In this document: piece by piece, positions 1,672 through 8,873 of the stretch
Layout of the letters: each line of letters begins with the position of its first letter
How positions within the stretch are numbered: the first letter of the stretch is position 1
Source: Romeriopsis navalis LEGE 11480
GTDB taxonomy: Bacteria; Cyanobacteriota; Cyanobacteriia; Leptolyngbyales; Leptolyngbyaceae
NCBI RefSeq assembly: GCF_015207035.1
Contig: NZ_JADEXQ010000050.1
Coordinates: 1-45,717 of the forward strand
Reading direction: 5' to 3'
DNA length: 45,717 nt
Notes under the pieces: model-generated
Database searches by the model: none
Told to the model about the DNA's origin: nothing
Seen by the model: the letters and a program-made list of their open reading frames with translations, nothing else
Position numbers and translations under genes: made by a program

Positions 1672-2913
1672 CTATGCGTGAATCGACGGACTGTTCGTGA
1701 ATTTTAGCTGATGCCGAGTAATGGCGGCCTGATAGCTGGCTTCTTGACGTTGCCCGATATTTTCTAAGCTATATTCCGTCAAGACGCGCTCCCGGGCAAT
1801 GCCGCCGAGCTGCTGCCGGCGGTCTGGATCTTGCAATAGTTGTAGCAGTGCCTCGGCCAGTGGTTTGGGTTGTTTCGGTGGAATCAGTAAGCCGGCATTG
1901 CCCCCATCGAGCATTTCGGCCATTCCACCGGCGTGGCTACCGACGACACCACGGCCTGCGGCCATTGATTCGAGGCAAACTAAGGGAAAGTTCTCCCAGA
2001 TACTAGGAAACACACAGATATCAGTCTGGGCCAAATATTCGGGAATGCGGTCCAGTGGCACGGCCCCAACAAACTCTAGGGATGCGGCATAACGTCGTAG
2101 CTTCTGGCTGAGATATTCCTGCATATTTAGGTTTGCCTGGGGTGATGGCCAAGCGGGGCCAACAAACCGGAACTTTGCGGCTGGATATTGTTGTAATACC
2201 AGGGGAATGGCTCGCATTAAGTCGAGGATGCCTTTGCGGATTTCGAGCCGACCAATGAACGTCACACGCTGTGTCGAAGTATCAAGCGGAATATCCAGGG
2301 ATATGGCGGGCGGAATGTAGGGTAACGGTACATTGATAAAGTTAGCGGGGTTTAGTTGCCAGTCGGTCTGGACCTGATGCAGGATTGCCTGGGAGGGGCC
2401 AGAAAGGACATCGGCATGGAGCGCATGTTGGTATTCGGGGTCTGCGCGATAATGATAGGCCGGTGATGACTGGGGCCATTTTCCCCGACGTAAACTCCCG
2501 AGGAAAAACCGAGCTTGGGCTAGGCGGGTCATGGGGATATGACTGATTGCAGCCAGCATGTAGCTCGGAGTATGCAGCTTAAGTACAAACGGCAAATCCG
2601 GAAATTGTTGACGAATTTCACGGCCCTCGGCACCACAATCCGGCCCTTCAATCACGTCAAAGTTGACGACGTGATGTCGTTGGGCGAATGTGGCCAAAAT
2701 TTCCTGCGGAAAACTCGTGCGATTCAGCGGTTGGATGCGATGCACCTTCAAGCCCGGGAACGCTTCACAGCCAGTGCGAGTGGGACTCGCGGTAAAAACT
2801 TCAACGGTATGACCCCGTTGCGCTAACAGATGCGCTGCCTGCTGGACATAGGTGGCAATACCGCCGATCGCATTATCCGGAGGATATTCATAACTAACAA
2901 ATGCAATCTTCAT
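1672..2913 (-). CDS. GT4 family glycosyltransferase, distal tandem copy
   Basis: A 413-residue retaining glycosyltransferase of the GT-B fold, expected at the cytosolic face of the membrane and adding a sugar from a nucleotide sugar to a growing glycan. The N-terminal acceptor domain opens SYEYPPDNAIGGIATYV with the glycine loop of GT4 enzymes. The C-terminal donor domain has FIGRLEIRKG (about 219-228) and the E-x7-E motif in WENFPLVCLESMAAG. It is the last gene of the minus-strand operon, 58 bases after its paralogue. Residues 208-402 are encoded by DNA identical to the paralogue (positions 1709-2292), while the N-terminal halves are only similar. This points to recent gene conversion or a misassembled duplication. 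The sugar donor and acceptor cannot be read from the sequence. Confidence 0.93.
   Translation of the reverse strand: MKIAFVSYEYPPDNAIGGIATYVQQAAHLLAQRGHTVEVFTASPTRTGCEAFPGLKVHRIQPLNRTSFPQEILATFAQRHHVVNFDVIEGPDCGAEGREIRQQFPDLPFVLKLHTPSYMLAAISHIPMTRLAQARFFLGSLRRGKWPQSSPAYHYRADPEYQHALHADVLSGPSQAILHQVQTDWQLNPANFINVPLPYIPPAISLDIPLDTSTQRVTFIGRLEIRKGILDLMRAIPLVLQQYPAAKFRFVGPAWPSPQANLNMQEYLSQKLRRYAASLEFVGAVPLDRIPEYLAQTDICVFPSIWENFPLVCLESMAAGRGVVGSHAGGMAEMLDGGNAGLLIPPKQPKPLAEALLQLLQDPDRRQQLGGIARERVLTEYSLENIGQRQEASYQAAITRHQLKFTNSPSIHA
1709..2292. repeat. 584-bp perfect direct repeat, copy A
   Basis: Read base by base, positions 1709-2292 are identical to 3024-3607 (offset 1315). The flanking bases differ at both ends (1708 C against 3023 G; 2293 A against 3608 G). 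The repeat lies wholly inside the GT4 gene and encodes its donor-binding C-terminal half. Confidence 0.97.
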
Positions 2914-2971
2914 GAATTGGCCAGTGGCGAGAGAGGATTCACGGTGTCAACTCAAGGAATGAGTTAGAAAT

Positions 2972-4231
2972 TTAGCTAATTTGCAGTGGGCTGGATGCTA
3001 AAGGTTGGGGGGGATAGACTTTGTGATGCCGAGTAATGGCGGCCTGATAGCTGGCTTCTTGACGTTGCCCGATATTTTCTAAGCTATATTCCGTCAAGAC
3101 GCGCTCCCGGGCAATGCCGCCGAGCTGCTGCCGGCGGTCTGGATCTTGCAATAGTTGTAGCAGTGCCTCGGCCAGTGGTTTGGGTTGTTTCGGTGGAATC
3201 AGTAAGCCGGCATTGCCCCCATCGAGCATTTCGGCCATTCCACCGGCGTGGCTACCGACGACACCACGGCCTGCGGCCATTGATTCGAGGCAAACTAAGG
3301 GAAAGTTCTCCCAGATACTAGGAAACACACAGATATCAGTCTGGGCCAAATATTCGGGAATGCGGTCCAGTGGCACGGCCCCAACAAACTCTAGGGATGC
3401 GGCATAACGTCGTAGCTTCTGGCTGAGATATTCCTGCATATTTAGGTTTGCCTGGGGTGATGGCCAAGCGGGGCCAACAAACCGGAACTTTGCGGCTGGA
3501 TATTGTTGTAATACCAGGGGAATGGCTCGCATTAAGTCGAGGATGCCTTTGCGGATTTCGAGCCGACCAATGAACGTCACACGCTGTGTCGAAGTATCAA
3601 GCGGAATGTCCAGCAGACTTGGCGTTGGGATATAGGGATAGGGAACCGAGGCGCAAAGCACGGGGTTGAGTTCCCACTCCGTGCGAACTAAGTCTTTGAT
3701 GGCATTGCAGGGGGCCGCAATTTCTTGTGCCCGTAAGGCGTTGTGGTATTCGGGATCGCGCTGTCGATCGTAGGTTTCGCCCGTGAGCTGAGGCCATTGT
3801 CCGCGTCGGAGCCCACCGAGGATAAACCGGGCTTTTCCCGATAAGCTGAGGGGCGGACGGCCAACACGACGCAGCATATAGCTGGGAGTATGCAGCTTGA
3901 GTACCATTGGTAATTCGGGGAACTTTGCCCCGATTCCCGCCGCATCAGCACCACAGTCCGGACCTTCGGCAACATCAAACTGAATGGCCTGATGCCGTGC
4001 GGTGAAAATGGGGGTAATTTCGGTGGCGAAACTCTGACGATCGGTGGGTTGAATGCGATGGACCGTCACCCCGGCATCCGTTTCGCTGCCTGCGCGATCG
4101 GGACTGGCAGCAAAAACTTCAACGGTATGGCCCCGCTGCGCCAGCATATGTGCCGCTTGGCGAACGTAGGTGGCAATGCCACCGATCGCAGTATCGGGGG
4201 GATATTCGTAGCTAATGAGGGCAATTTTCAT
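2972..4231 (-). CDS. GT4 family glycosyltransferase, proximal tandem copy
   Basis: A 419-residue paralogue of the next gene in the operon. Its N-terminus (SYEYPPDTAIGGIATYV) and middle are clearly homologous to that gene but diverged, including different residues around 120-200 where the acceptor would bind. Residues 209-403 are identical to the paralogue at the DNA level. The E-x7-E motif is in WENFPLVCLE. The last 16 residues differ again, so identity stops just before the stop codon. The start is 4 bases after the stop of the ABC ATPase gene, so translation is probably coupled. A plausible reading is that the two enzymes use the same nucleotide sugar but different acceptors. That is inference from which half is conserved. 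Confidence 0.93.
   Translation of the reverse strand: MKIALISYEYPPDTAIGGIATYVRQAAHMLAQRGHTVEVFAASPDRAGSETDAGVTVHRIQPTDRQSFATEITPIFTARHQAIQFDVAEGPDCGADAAGIGAKFPELPMVLKLHTPSYMLRRVGRPPLSLSGKARFILGGLRRGQWPQLTGETYDRQRDPEYHNALRAQEIAAPCNAIKDLVRTEWELNPVLCASVPYPYIPTPSLLDIPLDTSTQRVTFIGRLEIRKGILDLMRAIPLVLQQYPAAKFRFVGPAWPSPQANLNMQEYLSQKLRRYAASLEFVGAVPLDRIPEYLAQTDICVFPSIWENFPLVCLESMAAGRGVVGSHAGGMAEMLDGGNAGLLIPPKQPKPLAEALLQLLQDPDRRQQLGGIARERVLTEYSLENIGQRQEASYQAAITRHHKVYPPQPLASSPLQIS
3024..3607. repeat. 584-bp perfect direct repeat, copy B
   Basis: This is the second copy of the block described at 1709-2292, with no mismatch found over 584 bases. It is confined to the C-terminal half of the second GT4 gene. 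Confidence 0.97.
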
Positions 4232-4235
4232 GGGA

Positions 4236-5504
4236 TTAATGGGTCAAAATAGGGGTGTCTTGATTGAGGCGGCTACCTTGGGAGAGACGGACAAGACCGT
4301 GGTCATTGCGATAGGCCCACATGGCGTTTTCGACGATCGCGGGTTGCACTTCAAAGCTGAGGGCATCTTCAGCTTCAAGGTAGGTGACAGGATCATTCGA
4401 GCGGAAGAGGAAGATACTGGCACGGTAAGAACCGGGATAGAGCGGCAGACGACGGAGATTGAAGCTGACCGATAGTTCGTCTTTGAGTGGGAAGGGTTCG
4501 AGTCCTTCTTCACTGGTGCAGAGGCTTGAGACTAAGGTGCCCATCATGTCGTAGATACGGATGACGATCGCGCAGTCGCTCAAGGGACTATGGCCGTTGA
4601 GTTTGATATGGAGCTGATAGTCGCGATCGAAGATCGGCGATTGGGTCCGACAGAGCTCTTCGTCTTCCAGGTACGCATCAACGAGTTCGATGCCGTAGGG
4701 ACTGGTTGTACCGATTGTTGCGGGGGCGGATTCGGCACTGCTGAGATAGTGCTTAACGCCGTCTTCCGCGCTCCCAGCAAAAATCAGCTCACCTTTACGC
4801 ATCATCAGGGCGGAGTCACAGAGTTGACGAATGGCCGCCATATTGTGACTGACAAAGAGGACGGTGCGACCACCGTGGGCAACGTCTTTCATTTTGCCGA
4901 GGCACTTATTTTGGAATTGTGAGTCACCGACGGCGAGGACTTCATCCACAATCAAAATTTCGGGTTCGAGGTGGGCGGCAACGGCAAAAGCTAGGCGCAC
5001 GTACATCCCCGAGGAATAACGCTTGACTGGCGTATCGAGGAATTTTTCGACTTCGGCAAAGTCCACAATCTCATCAAACTTGCGCTTGATCTCAACTTTG
5101 CTCATGCCAAGGATGGCACCATTGAGAAAAATGTTTTCCCGGCCCGTGAGTTCGGGATGAAAACCGGTCCCAACTTCGAGTAGGCTGGCGACCCGACCGC
5201 GCATCTGAATGCGGCCCGATGTGGGTTCGGTGATGCGACTGAGCACCTTGAGCAAGGTGGATTTCCCCGCACCGTTGCGGCCAATGACGCCAACCCGCTC
5301 ACCTTGACGAATATCAAAAGAAACATCGTTTAAGGCCCAAAAATCTTGCTCGGACGATGTCTGGCGCGATCGATTAAAGCTACCTGTGAGGCGTTTGGCT
5401 TGGCCCGACAGCATTTCGCGGAACGAACCATATTGGTTATTGGCGGATTTGCCGAGGGTGTAGCGTTTACTCAGGTTCTCGACCTGAATCACAATATCTG
5501 ACAT
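4236..5504 (-). CDS. Polysaccharide ABC transporter ATP-binding protein with Wzt-like C-terminal domain
   Basis: A 422-residue ATPase that powers export of a lipid-linked polysaccharide across the inner membrane with the permease encoded just upstream. The nucleotide-binding domain has Walker A GRNGAGKST (75-83), signature YSSGM (163-167), Walker B ILIVDE (183-188) and the switch histidine in FVSHN (His220). This is the sequence type of the O-antigen and teichoic acid exporters (Wzt, TagH, RfbE). Residues of roughly 255-400 form an extra beta-rich domain resembling the Wzt C-terminal carbohydrate-binding domain, which in known systems recognises the chain terminus. The start lies 31 bases after the permease stop and the stop lies 4 bases before the first GT4 gene. 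Confidence in the family is high; the exported glycan is unknown. Confidence 0.95.
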   Translation of the reverse strand: MSDIVIQVENLSKRYTLGKSANNQYGSFREMLSGQAKRLTGSFNRSRQTSSEQDFWALNDVSFDIRQGERVGVIGRNGAGKSTLLKVLSRITEPTSGRIQMRGRVASLLEVGTGFHPELTGRENIFLNGAILGMSKVEIKRKFDEIVDFAEVEKFLDTPVKRYSSGMYVRLAFAVAAHLEPEILIVDEVLAVGDSQFQNKCLGKMKDVAHGGRTVLFVSHNMAAIRQLCDSALMMRKGELIFAGSAEDGVKHYLSSAESAPATIGTTSPYGIELVDAYLEDEELCRTQSPIFDRDYQLHIKLNGHSPLSDCAIVIRIYDMMGTLVSSLCTSEEGLEPFPLKDELSVSFNLRRLPLYPGSYRASIFLFRSNDPVTYLEAEDALSFEVQPAIVENAMWAYRNDHGLVRLSQGSRLNQDTPILTH

Positions 5505-5535: not shown

Positions 5536-6366
5536 TTAGATGACGTCAGCGAAGGAGCGTTCATAGGCGCGGAAGTAACGAATGCCGCCGAACAAAAAGG
5601 CAAACACAATACCGATCGAGATGACAAAGCCAGGTAAATAAAGGTGTGAGTCACCGCCCAGGATGGCCCAGCGGAAGCCGTCAATGACCCCCACCATGGG
5701 ATTGAGGGAGTAGATCCAGCGCCACTGCTCAGGCACAATACTGCTGCTAAAGCCCACCGGGGAGATATACAGACCAAACTGAATGATGAAGGGCACCACA
5801 TAGCGGAAATCCCGATATTTAACATTCAGTGCCGATAGCCATAAACCCGCACCCATGGCTGCACTAAAGGCAATCAGGATGAAAAAGGGGAGGGTAATAA
5901 TCCGCCAGCTTGGAATGAAGTGATACCAAGCCATGAGGCCAACCATAATCACACTGGAAATCATGAAGTCAATCAAGCTGACAATCACAGCACTAGTGGG
6001 GAGCACCAGGCGGGGAAAATAAACCTTCGACAGCAGATTTGCGTTGGTGATGAGGCTATTGCTACATTCAGATAAGGAATTGGCGAAGAATTGCCAAGGC
6101 AACATGGCCGCAAACACTAAAATCGGATAGGGTGCGCCTTGAGTCGGTAATTTGGCCAGGCTCCCGAAGACGACGCTAAACACGATCATCGTCAGAAAAG
6201 GTCGGAGTAAGGCCCAAGCAATCCCAATTGTGGTTTGTTTGTAGCGGACGAGAATATCGCGCCAGGCGAGAAAGTAGAAGAGTTCGCGGTAGCGCCACAG
6301 ATCCTGCCAGTATTGCCGTTCGGCGCGGCCTGATTCGATGGTGAATGAGAGGGAGCGCTGGGTCAT
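5536..6366 (-). CDS. ABC-2 type polysaccharide export permease (Wzm/TagG type)
   Basis: A 276-residue inner-membrane permease, the usual size for this family. It has about six hydrophobic segments, the first near residues 36-60 (LVRYKQTTIGIAWALLRPFL, characteristic of the family) and others near 65-90, 105-140, 150-175, 175-200 and 230-265. With the ATPase that follows it should form the pore that flips a polysaccharide chain. It is the first gene of the minus-strand operon. A 16-bp near-perfect palindrome lies 47-62 bases upstream of its start. The stop and the ATPase start are separated by 31 bases. The family is certain from sequence; the substrate is inferred from the two adjacent glycosyltransferases. 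Confidence 0.95.
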   Translation of the reverse strand: MTQRSLSFTIESGRAERQYWQDLWRYRELFYFLAWRDILVRYKQTTIGIAWALLRPFLTMIVFSVVFGSLAKLPTQGAPYPILVFAAMLPWQFFANSLSECSNSLITNANLLSKVYFPRLVLPTSAVIVSLIDFMISSVIMVGLMAWYHFIPSWRIITLPFFILIAFSAAMGAGLWLSALNVKYRDFRYVVPFIIQFGLYISPVGFSSSIVPEQWRWIYSLNPMVGVIDGFRWAILGGDSHLYLPGFVISIGIVFAFLFGGIRYFRAYERSFADVI

Positions 6367-6428: not shown

Positions 6429-6647
6429 ATCCCGATGGCTCTACTCTGGCAAATGATTTTCTGCGATCGCGTATACGCTGTTGTGGACTTTGGTGTTTGA
6501 CTTGTGCAGGGGATTGAGTCACGCCTCGGGGATTTGTATGTGACAGTAGAAAAATCGGATAAGGTGGATCTAGTCAGAATTACCGCTTTTGGTTAAGCTG
6601 TAGGGCAGTTTTCCTGCCATCACCTGTGGCATTTGTGATTACGGCCT

Positions 6648-8873
6648 ATGAAATTTCCATTTGCAGCTTGGCGATCGCGAAGATCTTCAAGTAATGAACC
6701 ATCGGGTGCTGCAGCTCAGGGTTTAGGTACGTTTGGTGGAGTCTATACACCCTCAATTCTGACGATCTTGGGGGTGATTATGTACCTCCGGTTTGGTTGG
6801 GTTGTGGGTAATGTGGGGTTGGTCGGGTCGCTGCTGATTGTGACGCTGGCCACGGCAATTACCTTTTTGACAGCGTTGTCGGTCTGTGCGATCGCCACGG
6901 ACCGGGTGGTGCGGGTCGGGGGTGCGTACTATATGATTAGTCGCTCACTGGGGATTGAGACCGGTGGAGCTGTCGGAATTTCGCTGTATTTTGCGCAAGG
7001 GCTATCGATCGCGCTATATACGATGGGTTTTGCTGAGAGTGTGACCCAAACGTTTGGTCATTTAGATCAGACATTCGTGGCGCTGGTGACGACGATCGCC
7101 GTGGCAATACTTGCTTTAACTTCGGCGGAGGTGGCGATTAAGGCGCAGTACGTGATTATGGGGGCGATTATCCTATCGCTGTTGTCGTTGGTTCTGGGCG
7201 GGAATTTGCCGGCGGTGGCGCCGCAGGGATTGGGGGTGACGACGGGTAGCGTGCCATTTTGGAGCGTGTTTGCCGTGTTTTTCCCGGCGGTAACGGGAAT
7301 TATGGCAGGCGTCAGTATGTCGGGAGACTTGGAGAATCCGAGTCAATCGATTCCGAAGGGGACATTGGCCGCTGTGGGCACGGGTTATCTGATTTATATG
7401 GCGCTGCCGTTTTTGCTGTCGACGCGGGCCGATACTGCGAGTTTAGTGAATGATTCGCTGGTGATGCAGCGGTTGGCGATTTGGCAACCGGCGATTTTGT
7501 TGGGGGTCTGGGGTGCGACGTTATCGAGTGCACTGGGGAGTATTTTGGCCGCGCCGCGAGTATTGCAGGCGTTGGCCCGGGACGGGGTATTGCCCCGATG
7601 GTTGGCTTGGCTGGGCAATGGCAGTAAAGAAAAGGATGAGCCGCGGATTGGGACGATCGTGACTTTGATGATTGCGATCGCTGCGGTCTGTATTGGGGAC
7701 TTAAATTTGGTTGCTCCAGTATTGACGATGTTTTTCTTGACCACCTATCTGGTGCTCAATTTGGCGGCGGCGATCGAGGGAATGCTCCAGAGTCCATCAT
7801 TTCGACCAACGTTTAAGGTGAAGTGGATTTGGTCGCTGTTAGGGGCGATCGGTTGTTTGGCGGTGATGGTTTTGATCAATGCGACGGCCACATTGGCGGC
7901 AGCGGCGATCGTCTTAGCAATTTTCTTTTGGCTGAGTCAGCGAGAGCTGGAGACGACTTGGGGCGACGTACGGCGCGGCATGTGGATGGCGCTGGTGCGG
8001 TTTGGCCTATTTCAGATTGATCATGCAGAGGATACGAAGAACTGGCGACCGCATGTCTTGGTGCTATCGGGGACACCGACGAAGCGATGGCCATTGATTG
8101 AATTGGCGGAGGCGTTAACGCATAATCGGGGCTTGGTGACAGTGGCCAGTGTGTTGCCGGAGGGGTCGCGGGATGCTGAACAAAAAAGTAATCTGGAGCG
8201 ACTGATTCGGGATTATCTGATTAAGCAGAATGTGCAGGCGTTGGTACGCATTGTGACGGCGGCCGATCCGTTTGAGGGGACTCTACAGCTGGTCAGTACC
8301 TACGGTTTGGGGCCGATCGTGCCAAATACGATCGTGCTGGGGGCGAGCCAAGACGAGAAGCGGCAGCAGCAATATTGCGATATGGTGACGCAGCTACATC
8401 AGGCGAAGAAGAATGTCGTCATTTTACGGGACCACCCGCAGTATGGATTTGCGCATCGACATCAGATTGATGTGTGGTGGGGGGGGATGGAAGCCAATGG
8501 CGGTCTGATGCTGTTGATGGCTTACTTGCTGGGCTCGAATGTGGCGTGGCGGAATGCCACAATTTGCCTGAAGTTTGTGGTGCCTGATCCCAATGCGGCA
8601 CAGGCGGCAGAAGCGAATATTCAGGCGTTGGTGAGTGAGTTAAGGATTGGGGCGATCTATCAGGTGATTATTGCGGATGGGCGATCGTTTGATGAAATTT
8701 TGCATGATTCGTCGCGGGATGCCGATGTCGTATTTTTAGGGATGGCGACACCGGAGCAGGTGGATTTTGCGCAGTATTATCCAGATTTTTACCAGCGAAC
8801 AAGTGGGCTGCCAAGCGTGGTGTATGTGATGGCCGCGCCGGGGTTTGCCTATGGTCAGGTTTTGGGGGAATAG
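6648..8873 (+). CDS. SLC12-type cation-chloride cotransporter (APC superfamily)
   Basis: A 741-residue secondary transporter. Residues about 25-450 form some 12 membrane helices of the APC fold. The first helix region, LGTFGGVYTPSILTILGVI followed by MYLRFGWVVG, is the hallmark of Na-K-Cl and K-Cl cotransporters. After the membrane domain, residues about 460-741 form a large soluble domain. It begins RPHVLVLSG, contains PLIELAEAL and VVYVMAAPG-like segments, and matches the SLC12 C-terminal regulatory domain. It is expected to move chloride with sodium and/or potassium across the cell membrane, possibly for osmotic balance; ion selectivity cannot be read here. It stands alone between the export operon and the oxidoreductase gene, with a 281-base upstream gap that holds no clear promoter beyond short hairpins. 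Confidence 0.92.
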   Translation: MKFPFAAWRSRRSSSNEPSGAAAQGLGTFGGVYTPSILTILGVIMYLRFGWVVGNVGLVGSLLIVTLATAITFLTALSVCAIATDRVVRVGGAYYMISRSLGIETGGAVGISLYFAQGLSIALYTMGFAESVTQTFGHLDQTFVALVTTIAVAILALTSAEVAIKAQYVIMGAIILSLLSLVLGGNLPAVAPQGLGVTTGSVPFWSVFAVFFPAVTGIMAGVSMSGDLENPSQSIPKGTLAAVGTGYLIYMALPFLLSTRADTASLVNDSLVMQRLAIWQPAILLGVWGATLSSALGSILAAPRVLQALARDGVLPRWLAWLGNGSKEKDEPRIGTIVTLMIAIAAVCIGDLNLVAPVLTMFFLTTYLVLNLAAAIEGMLQSPSFRPTFKVKWIWSLLGAIGCLAVMVLINATATLAAAAIVLAIFFWLSQRELETTWGDVRRGMWMALVRFGLFQIDHAEDTKNWRPHVLVLSGTPTKRWPLIELAEALTHNRGLVTVASVLPEGSRDAEQKSNLERLIRDYLIKQNVQALVRIVTAADPFEGTLQLVSTYGLGPIVPNTIVLGASQDEKRQQQYCDMVTQLHQAKKNVVILRDHPQYGFAHRHQIDVWWGGMEANGGLMLLMAYLLGSNVAWRNATICLKFVVPDPNAAQAAEANIQALVSELRIGAIYQVIIADGRSFDEILHDSSRDADVVFLGMATPEQVDFAQYYPDFYQRTSGLPSVVYVMAAPGFAYGQVLGE

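Follow-up and report, generated by a model that had tools for sequence, protein, structure and literature searches.

Tandem GT4 glycosyltransferase genes at a Wzm/Wzt locus of Romeriopsis navalis LEGE 11480 share an identical donor-binding half, probably through partial gene conversion

Two adjacent GT4 glycosyltransferase genes of Romeriopsis navalis LEGE 11480, GTA and GTB, are identical in DNA over the half coding for the predicted donor-binding domain and strongly diverged over the other half. This is a real and well-delimited partial gene conversion, or an equivalent exchange, between tandem paralogues, and the process is a known one. The best explanation is an old tandem duplication of a GT4 gene followed, much later, by gene conversion between the two copies, to which we assign a probability of about 0.75.

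The locus

The window, i.e. the whole stretch of DNA analysed, is the entire contig C50 (45,717 bp). The features on which the analysis bears are the following, with positions counted in the window.

1672..2913, minus strand: GTA, the downstream GT4 glycosyltransferase, 413 aa (ORF list; Pfam PF13692/PF00534 in the C half, PF13579/PF13439 in the N half)
1709..2292, minus strand: identical block in GTA, residues 208-401, covering the predicted C-terminal Rossmann (donor-binding) domain and the greater part of the last helix
2293..2913, minus strand: diverged N-terminal half of GTA (58% aa and 63% nt identity to GTB)
2914..2971, no strand: spacer of 58 bp between GTA and GTB, which together with two unrelated C-terminal tails forms the 3' boundary of the block
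2972..4231, minus strand: GTB, the upstream GT4 glycosyltransferase, 419 aa, adjoining Wzt (ORF list, Pfam, synteny)
3024..3607, minus strand: identical block in GTB, residues 209-402
3608..4231, minus strand: diverged N-terminal half of GTB (69% aa identity to the orthologues from G010 and G001)
4236..5504, minus strand: Wzt-type ABC transporter ATPase with a Wzt_C domain (Pfam PF00005, PF14524)
5536..6366, minus strand: Wzm-type ABC-2 permease (Pfam PF01061)

GTA and GTB lie on the same strand, downstream of the exporter; both are intact members of GT4, a family of retaining enzymes with the GT-B fold, and carry the N- and C-terminal GT-B domains (PF13439/PF13579 and PF00534/PF13692, respectively) with scores above the curated cut-offs. 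The combination of an ABC-2 permease with an ATPase carrying the Wzt C-terminal domain (PF01061, PF00005 and PF14524) marks the region as a Wzm/Wzt polysaccharide export locus. As in other loci of this ABC-transporter-dependent type, Wzm and a Wzt with its Wzt_C domain are accompanied by an adjacent GT4 gene; unlike in typical ones, this gene is tandemly duplicated here.

The identical block and the divergence around it

The initial annotation had described a GT4 pair identical over 584 bp of DNA, silent sites included, with diverged N-terminal halves, and each of these points is borne out. Positions 1709-2292 and 3024-3607 match exactly over 584 bp, at an offset of 1315 (the range 1709-3607 given in that annotation covers both copies of the block), and the absence of any difference over 584 positions places the 95% upper bound of divergence at ~0.5%. 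The N halves, by comparison, are 63.3% identical in nucleotides and 58.0% in amino acids. Four-fold sites differ at 36 of 63 positions in the N halves and at none of 102 in the block (Fisher P = 1.7e-19). The N halves have a dS of ~1.8, which is saturated, and a dN/dS of ~0.18, which indicates constraint. Independent selection had been dismissed as a cause, rightly so, since selection at the protein level cannot yield identity at silent sites. When two orthologues are added to the alignment, GTA and GTB agree without interruption over as many as 214 of the 548 polymorphic sites, while the longest run in 10,000 permutations of the same sites was at most 27 (0/10,000 reaching 214). Both edges of the block are internal: on the 5' side it meets N halves which are homologous but different, and on the 3' side the unrelated tails and the spacer. 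The picture is that of interlocus gene conversion, i.e. a tract of near-identity between paralogues, silent sites included, lying amid diverged homologous sequence.

A search of the whole genome returned only GTA and GTB as members, the next GT4 match being 32% identical, and no further copies of the block were found in it, the copy number itself resting on one path of a short-read assembly graph. Neither viral contigs nor phage records gave a match. In a sample of ~1.2 Mb of the genome (18%, in pieces of at most 20 kb, with the window taken whole), the runner-up among non-trivial exact repeats within one piece measures 152 bp.

Relatives and age of the duplication

Relatives were found with an alignment query, a single-protein scan of genome contigs having returned none. 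The order Wzm-Wzt-GT4, with one GT4 gene beside Wzt, occurs in Alkalinema sp. RU_4_3, G001, G039, G309, G332 and G218, and G047 has the three genes in the same order but with a gap. GTB occupies the place in the gene order that the single-copy orthologues hold. Since the GT4 gene of these relatives is present in a single copy beside Wzm/Wzt, GTA and GTB represent a tandem duplicate.

In the N half, GTB shares 69% amino acid identity with its counterparts in G010 and G001, and GTA 62%, compared to 58% between GTA and GTB. In the C half, GTA and GTB are one and the same sequence, with 78% identity to G010 and 76% to G001. The N halves are thus further apart from each other than each is from the genes of other genera, which argues that the duplication is old and that homogenisation of the shared half came much later. 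In the N-half tree, GTA and GTB group with G010 and G001 in one clade (99/99), the N half of GTA being on a long branch; the best tree does not place GTA and GTB as sisters, though an AU test does not reject such a placement (p = 0.08). The duplication probably dates back to about the time of the split from the genera of G010 and G001, or further, or else the N half of GTA evolved fast. A foreign origin of this N half was also considered; it is unsupported by the tree, and neither GC nor GC3 points to it.

Proposed history and direction of the exchange

The history that we propose would start with the GT4 gene of the Wzm/Wzt polysaccharide-export operon being duplicated in tandem long ago. Much later, a non-reciprocal recombination (gene conversion) would have taken place between GTA and GTB, with a converted tract extending from the interdomain linker to the end of the alignable sequence near the C terminus. 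Because the block is bordered by diverged sequence on both sides, a single crossover is insufficient, and the block can be accounted for by one gene conversion or by a cycle of expansion and contraction through unequal crossing-over. Such a cycle, in which the locus expands to three genes and then contracts, would lead to the same outcome. Tandem copies on the same strand at a spacing of 1,315 bp should be good substrates for it, and unequal crossing-over cycles would, from what is known of recombination, also give unique ends and homogenised middles. It requires at least two events, however, and we infer that conversion is to be favoured over this two-step route, which we hold to be rather unlikely.

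The linker gives some indication of the direction of conversion. It reads PYIPTPSLLD in GTB, against PYIPTPALLD/E in G001 and G010, and PYIPPAISLD in GTA. As GTB is the copy that keeps an orthologue-like linker, the sequences weakly favour conversion from GTB to GTA.

Possible effects of the assembly

As for the cause of the identity, recent recombination between the paralogues, one of the explanations put forward in the initial annotation, is the best one, with the proviso that a few differences may have been smoothed by the assembler. The first 127 bp of the window recur without a difference at the ends of contigs C9, C79 and C90, and other contig ends likewise overlap by exactly 127 bp, which points to a short-read de Bruijn assembly with k=127. 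Read on the minus strand, positions 1-127 of the window give MRCPRCESDQLYKNGVRQLKD, which we take to resemble the start of an IS1-type transposase. The only 16S found is on contig C191 (L163; 5,351 bp), which overlaps the starts of C21 and C97 by 127 bp, and the rRNA operons were probably collapsed in the assembly.

As the repeat, at 584 bp, exceeds k, both copies of the block derive from one collapsed node of the graph, so that a few true differences may have been merged and additional units of 1,315 bp may have been missed. The C halves could then be similar but non-identical in the cell and have been merged by the assembler's bubble removal, an idea favoured by the 127-bp overlaps typical of such an assembly, the rRNA operon on its own contig and the length of the repeat. 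In a stronger form, the array would hold more than two units, since the graph sets no limit to the passes through its R-B-R loop. Bubble merging is limited to near-identical paths, however, and could not hide the ~37% divergence of the N halves; each copy of the block is flanked on either side by sequence unique to it, and these four distinct flanks require two copies. Even with a few differences lost, the sharp step from ~63% to nearly 100% identity would persist. An assembly origin of the pattern is therefore improbable: the divergence step is robust, whereas the exact perfection of the identity is not.

Domain structure and the position of the block

The AlphaFold2 model of GTB has a GT-B fold (pLDDT 91, pTM 0.88), the nearest solved structures being those of sucrose-phosphate synthase (SPS), MshA, BshA and PimA. 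In this model, the block (residues 209-402) starts in the loop 208-216, ahead of the strand that opens the C domain (217-221); it ends inside the last helix (384-405). According to the model, the block is thus the C-terminal, donor-binding Rossmann domain with almost all of the last helix, and its earlier designation as the donor half is correct to within the interdomain linker. In alignment A1, G17-G18, H114, R223, K228 and E316 (GTB numbering) are invariant and E308 is nearly so; GTA and GTB each keep all of them, including the EX7E glutamates. These positions presumably correspond, from what is known of the family, to the GG loop, the catalytic-region His, the Arg/Lys of the donor site and the EX7E motif. 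Both proteins would, judging by their sequences, be active enzymes. The EX7E motif itself reads WENFPLVCLE in both copies of the block, compared to WESFGLVCLE in the orthologues from G010 and G001, and in the wider alignment A2 most sequences have ENFP.

The coincidence of the block with a domain raises the question of whether selection contributed to its limits. Selection could purge tracts reaching into the N domain, so that one donor specificity is kept with different acceptors, a process which would add to gene conversion. The position of the 5' edge in the interdomain linker is in its favour, and so is the fact that in GT-B enzymes the N domain dictates the acceptor and the C domain the donor, with linker-joined chimeras that can be active (PMC10937113). 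At the 3' edge, however, the alignable sequence itself runs out, so only the 5' edge was free to vary, and its agreement with the domain border is no more than suggestive. With a single event and effectively one free breakpoint, the edge would fall at the linker by chance in ~5% of cases, according to our own estimate. The C half, being more conserved, is in any case the likelier site for a tract, and the pattern is absent from the ~65 other loci examined. We therefore regard a role of selection as doubtful. It is even harder to credit, as a general rule, that tandem bacterial GT-B enzymes with diverging acceptor domains are held to a single donor sugar by repeated, selection-filtered conversion limited to the donor domain. 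That GTA and GTB use the same donor and different acceptors is nonetheless plausible, and may serve as a fair working hypothesis.

The last alternative, a recent duplication of the whole gene with one N half then replaced by horizontal transfer or altered by very fast divergence, would fit the long branch of the GTA N half but is extremely unlikely, as this half lies inside the four-member clade with ordinary GC, the unrelated C-terminal tails and spacer are not expected from a recent whole-gene copy, and the N halves combine saturated silent divergence with constraint.

Comparison with known systems and other loci

GTA and GTB have a counterpart in mammalian TLR1/TLR6, an example of interlocus gene conversion, or concerted evolution, between tandem paralogues (PMC2077338): in both cases the genes are adjacent, part of the gene is homogenised and the rest diverged, and this is visible at silent sites. 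The present pair differs in consisting of bacterial GT4 genes and in being a single instance from one genome. The vertebrate UGT1 cluster also comprises GT-B enzymes with differing acceptor-binding N domains and an identical donor-binding C domain, but there the one donor domain is joined to the variable acceptor domains by splicing of constant exons, with little gene conversion (PMC1885805), whereas GTA and GTB are two complete genes made alike by recombination. If repeated conversion of the donor domain did occur, it would be a recombination-based counterpart of this shared-exon arrangement. Engineered GT-B domain-swap chimeras (PMC10937113) resemble the pair in having the joint in the interdomain linker and specificities for acceptor and donor set by the N and C domain; unlike them, the swap seen here is a natural recombination, known from sequence alone.

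The locus offers a clean natural case of recombination that follows the division of GT-B enzymes into two domains, in effect a domain swap between paralogues of a surface-polysaccharide operon. Being one case in a short-read assembly, it serves chiefly to illustrate a process already known; were it to recur, it would account for pairs of glycosyltransferases that add the same sugar to different acceptors. There is no evidence for a recurrent strategy, as the pattern occurs at this locus only among those examined. No partial homogenisation was seen in the ~65 related loci, where the exact repeats fall outside the GT4 homologues, and the literature searched, the coverage of which is incomplete, yielded no account of conversion of the donor half in a pair of bacterial GT4 genes. 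The other GT4-rich regions of the same genome contain no adjacent pair with detectable DNA similarity; on contig C6, for example, four GT4 genes lie within 8 kb (~39-47 kb) without similarity to one another in DNA. Around a related GT4 gene in an Armatimonadetes MAG (L116), two other ORFs, located 5.9 kb apart (661-1192 and 6558-7089), have in common a stretch of 537 bp at 86% identity.
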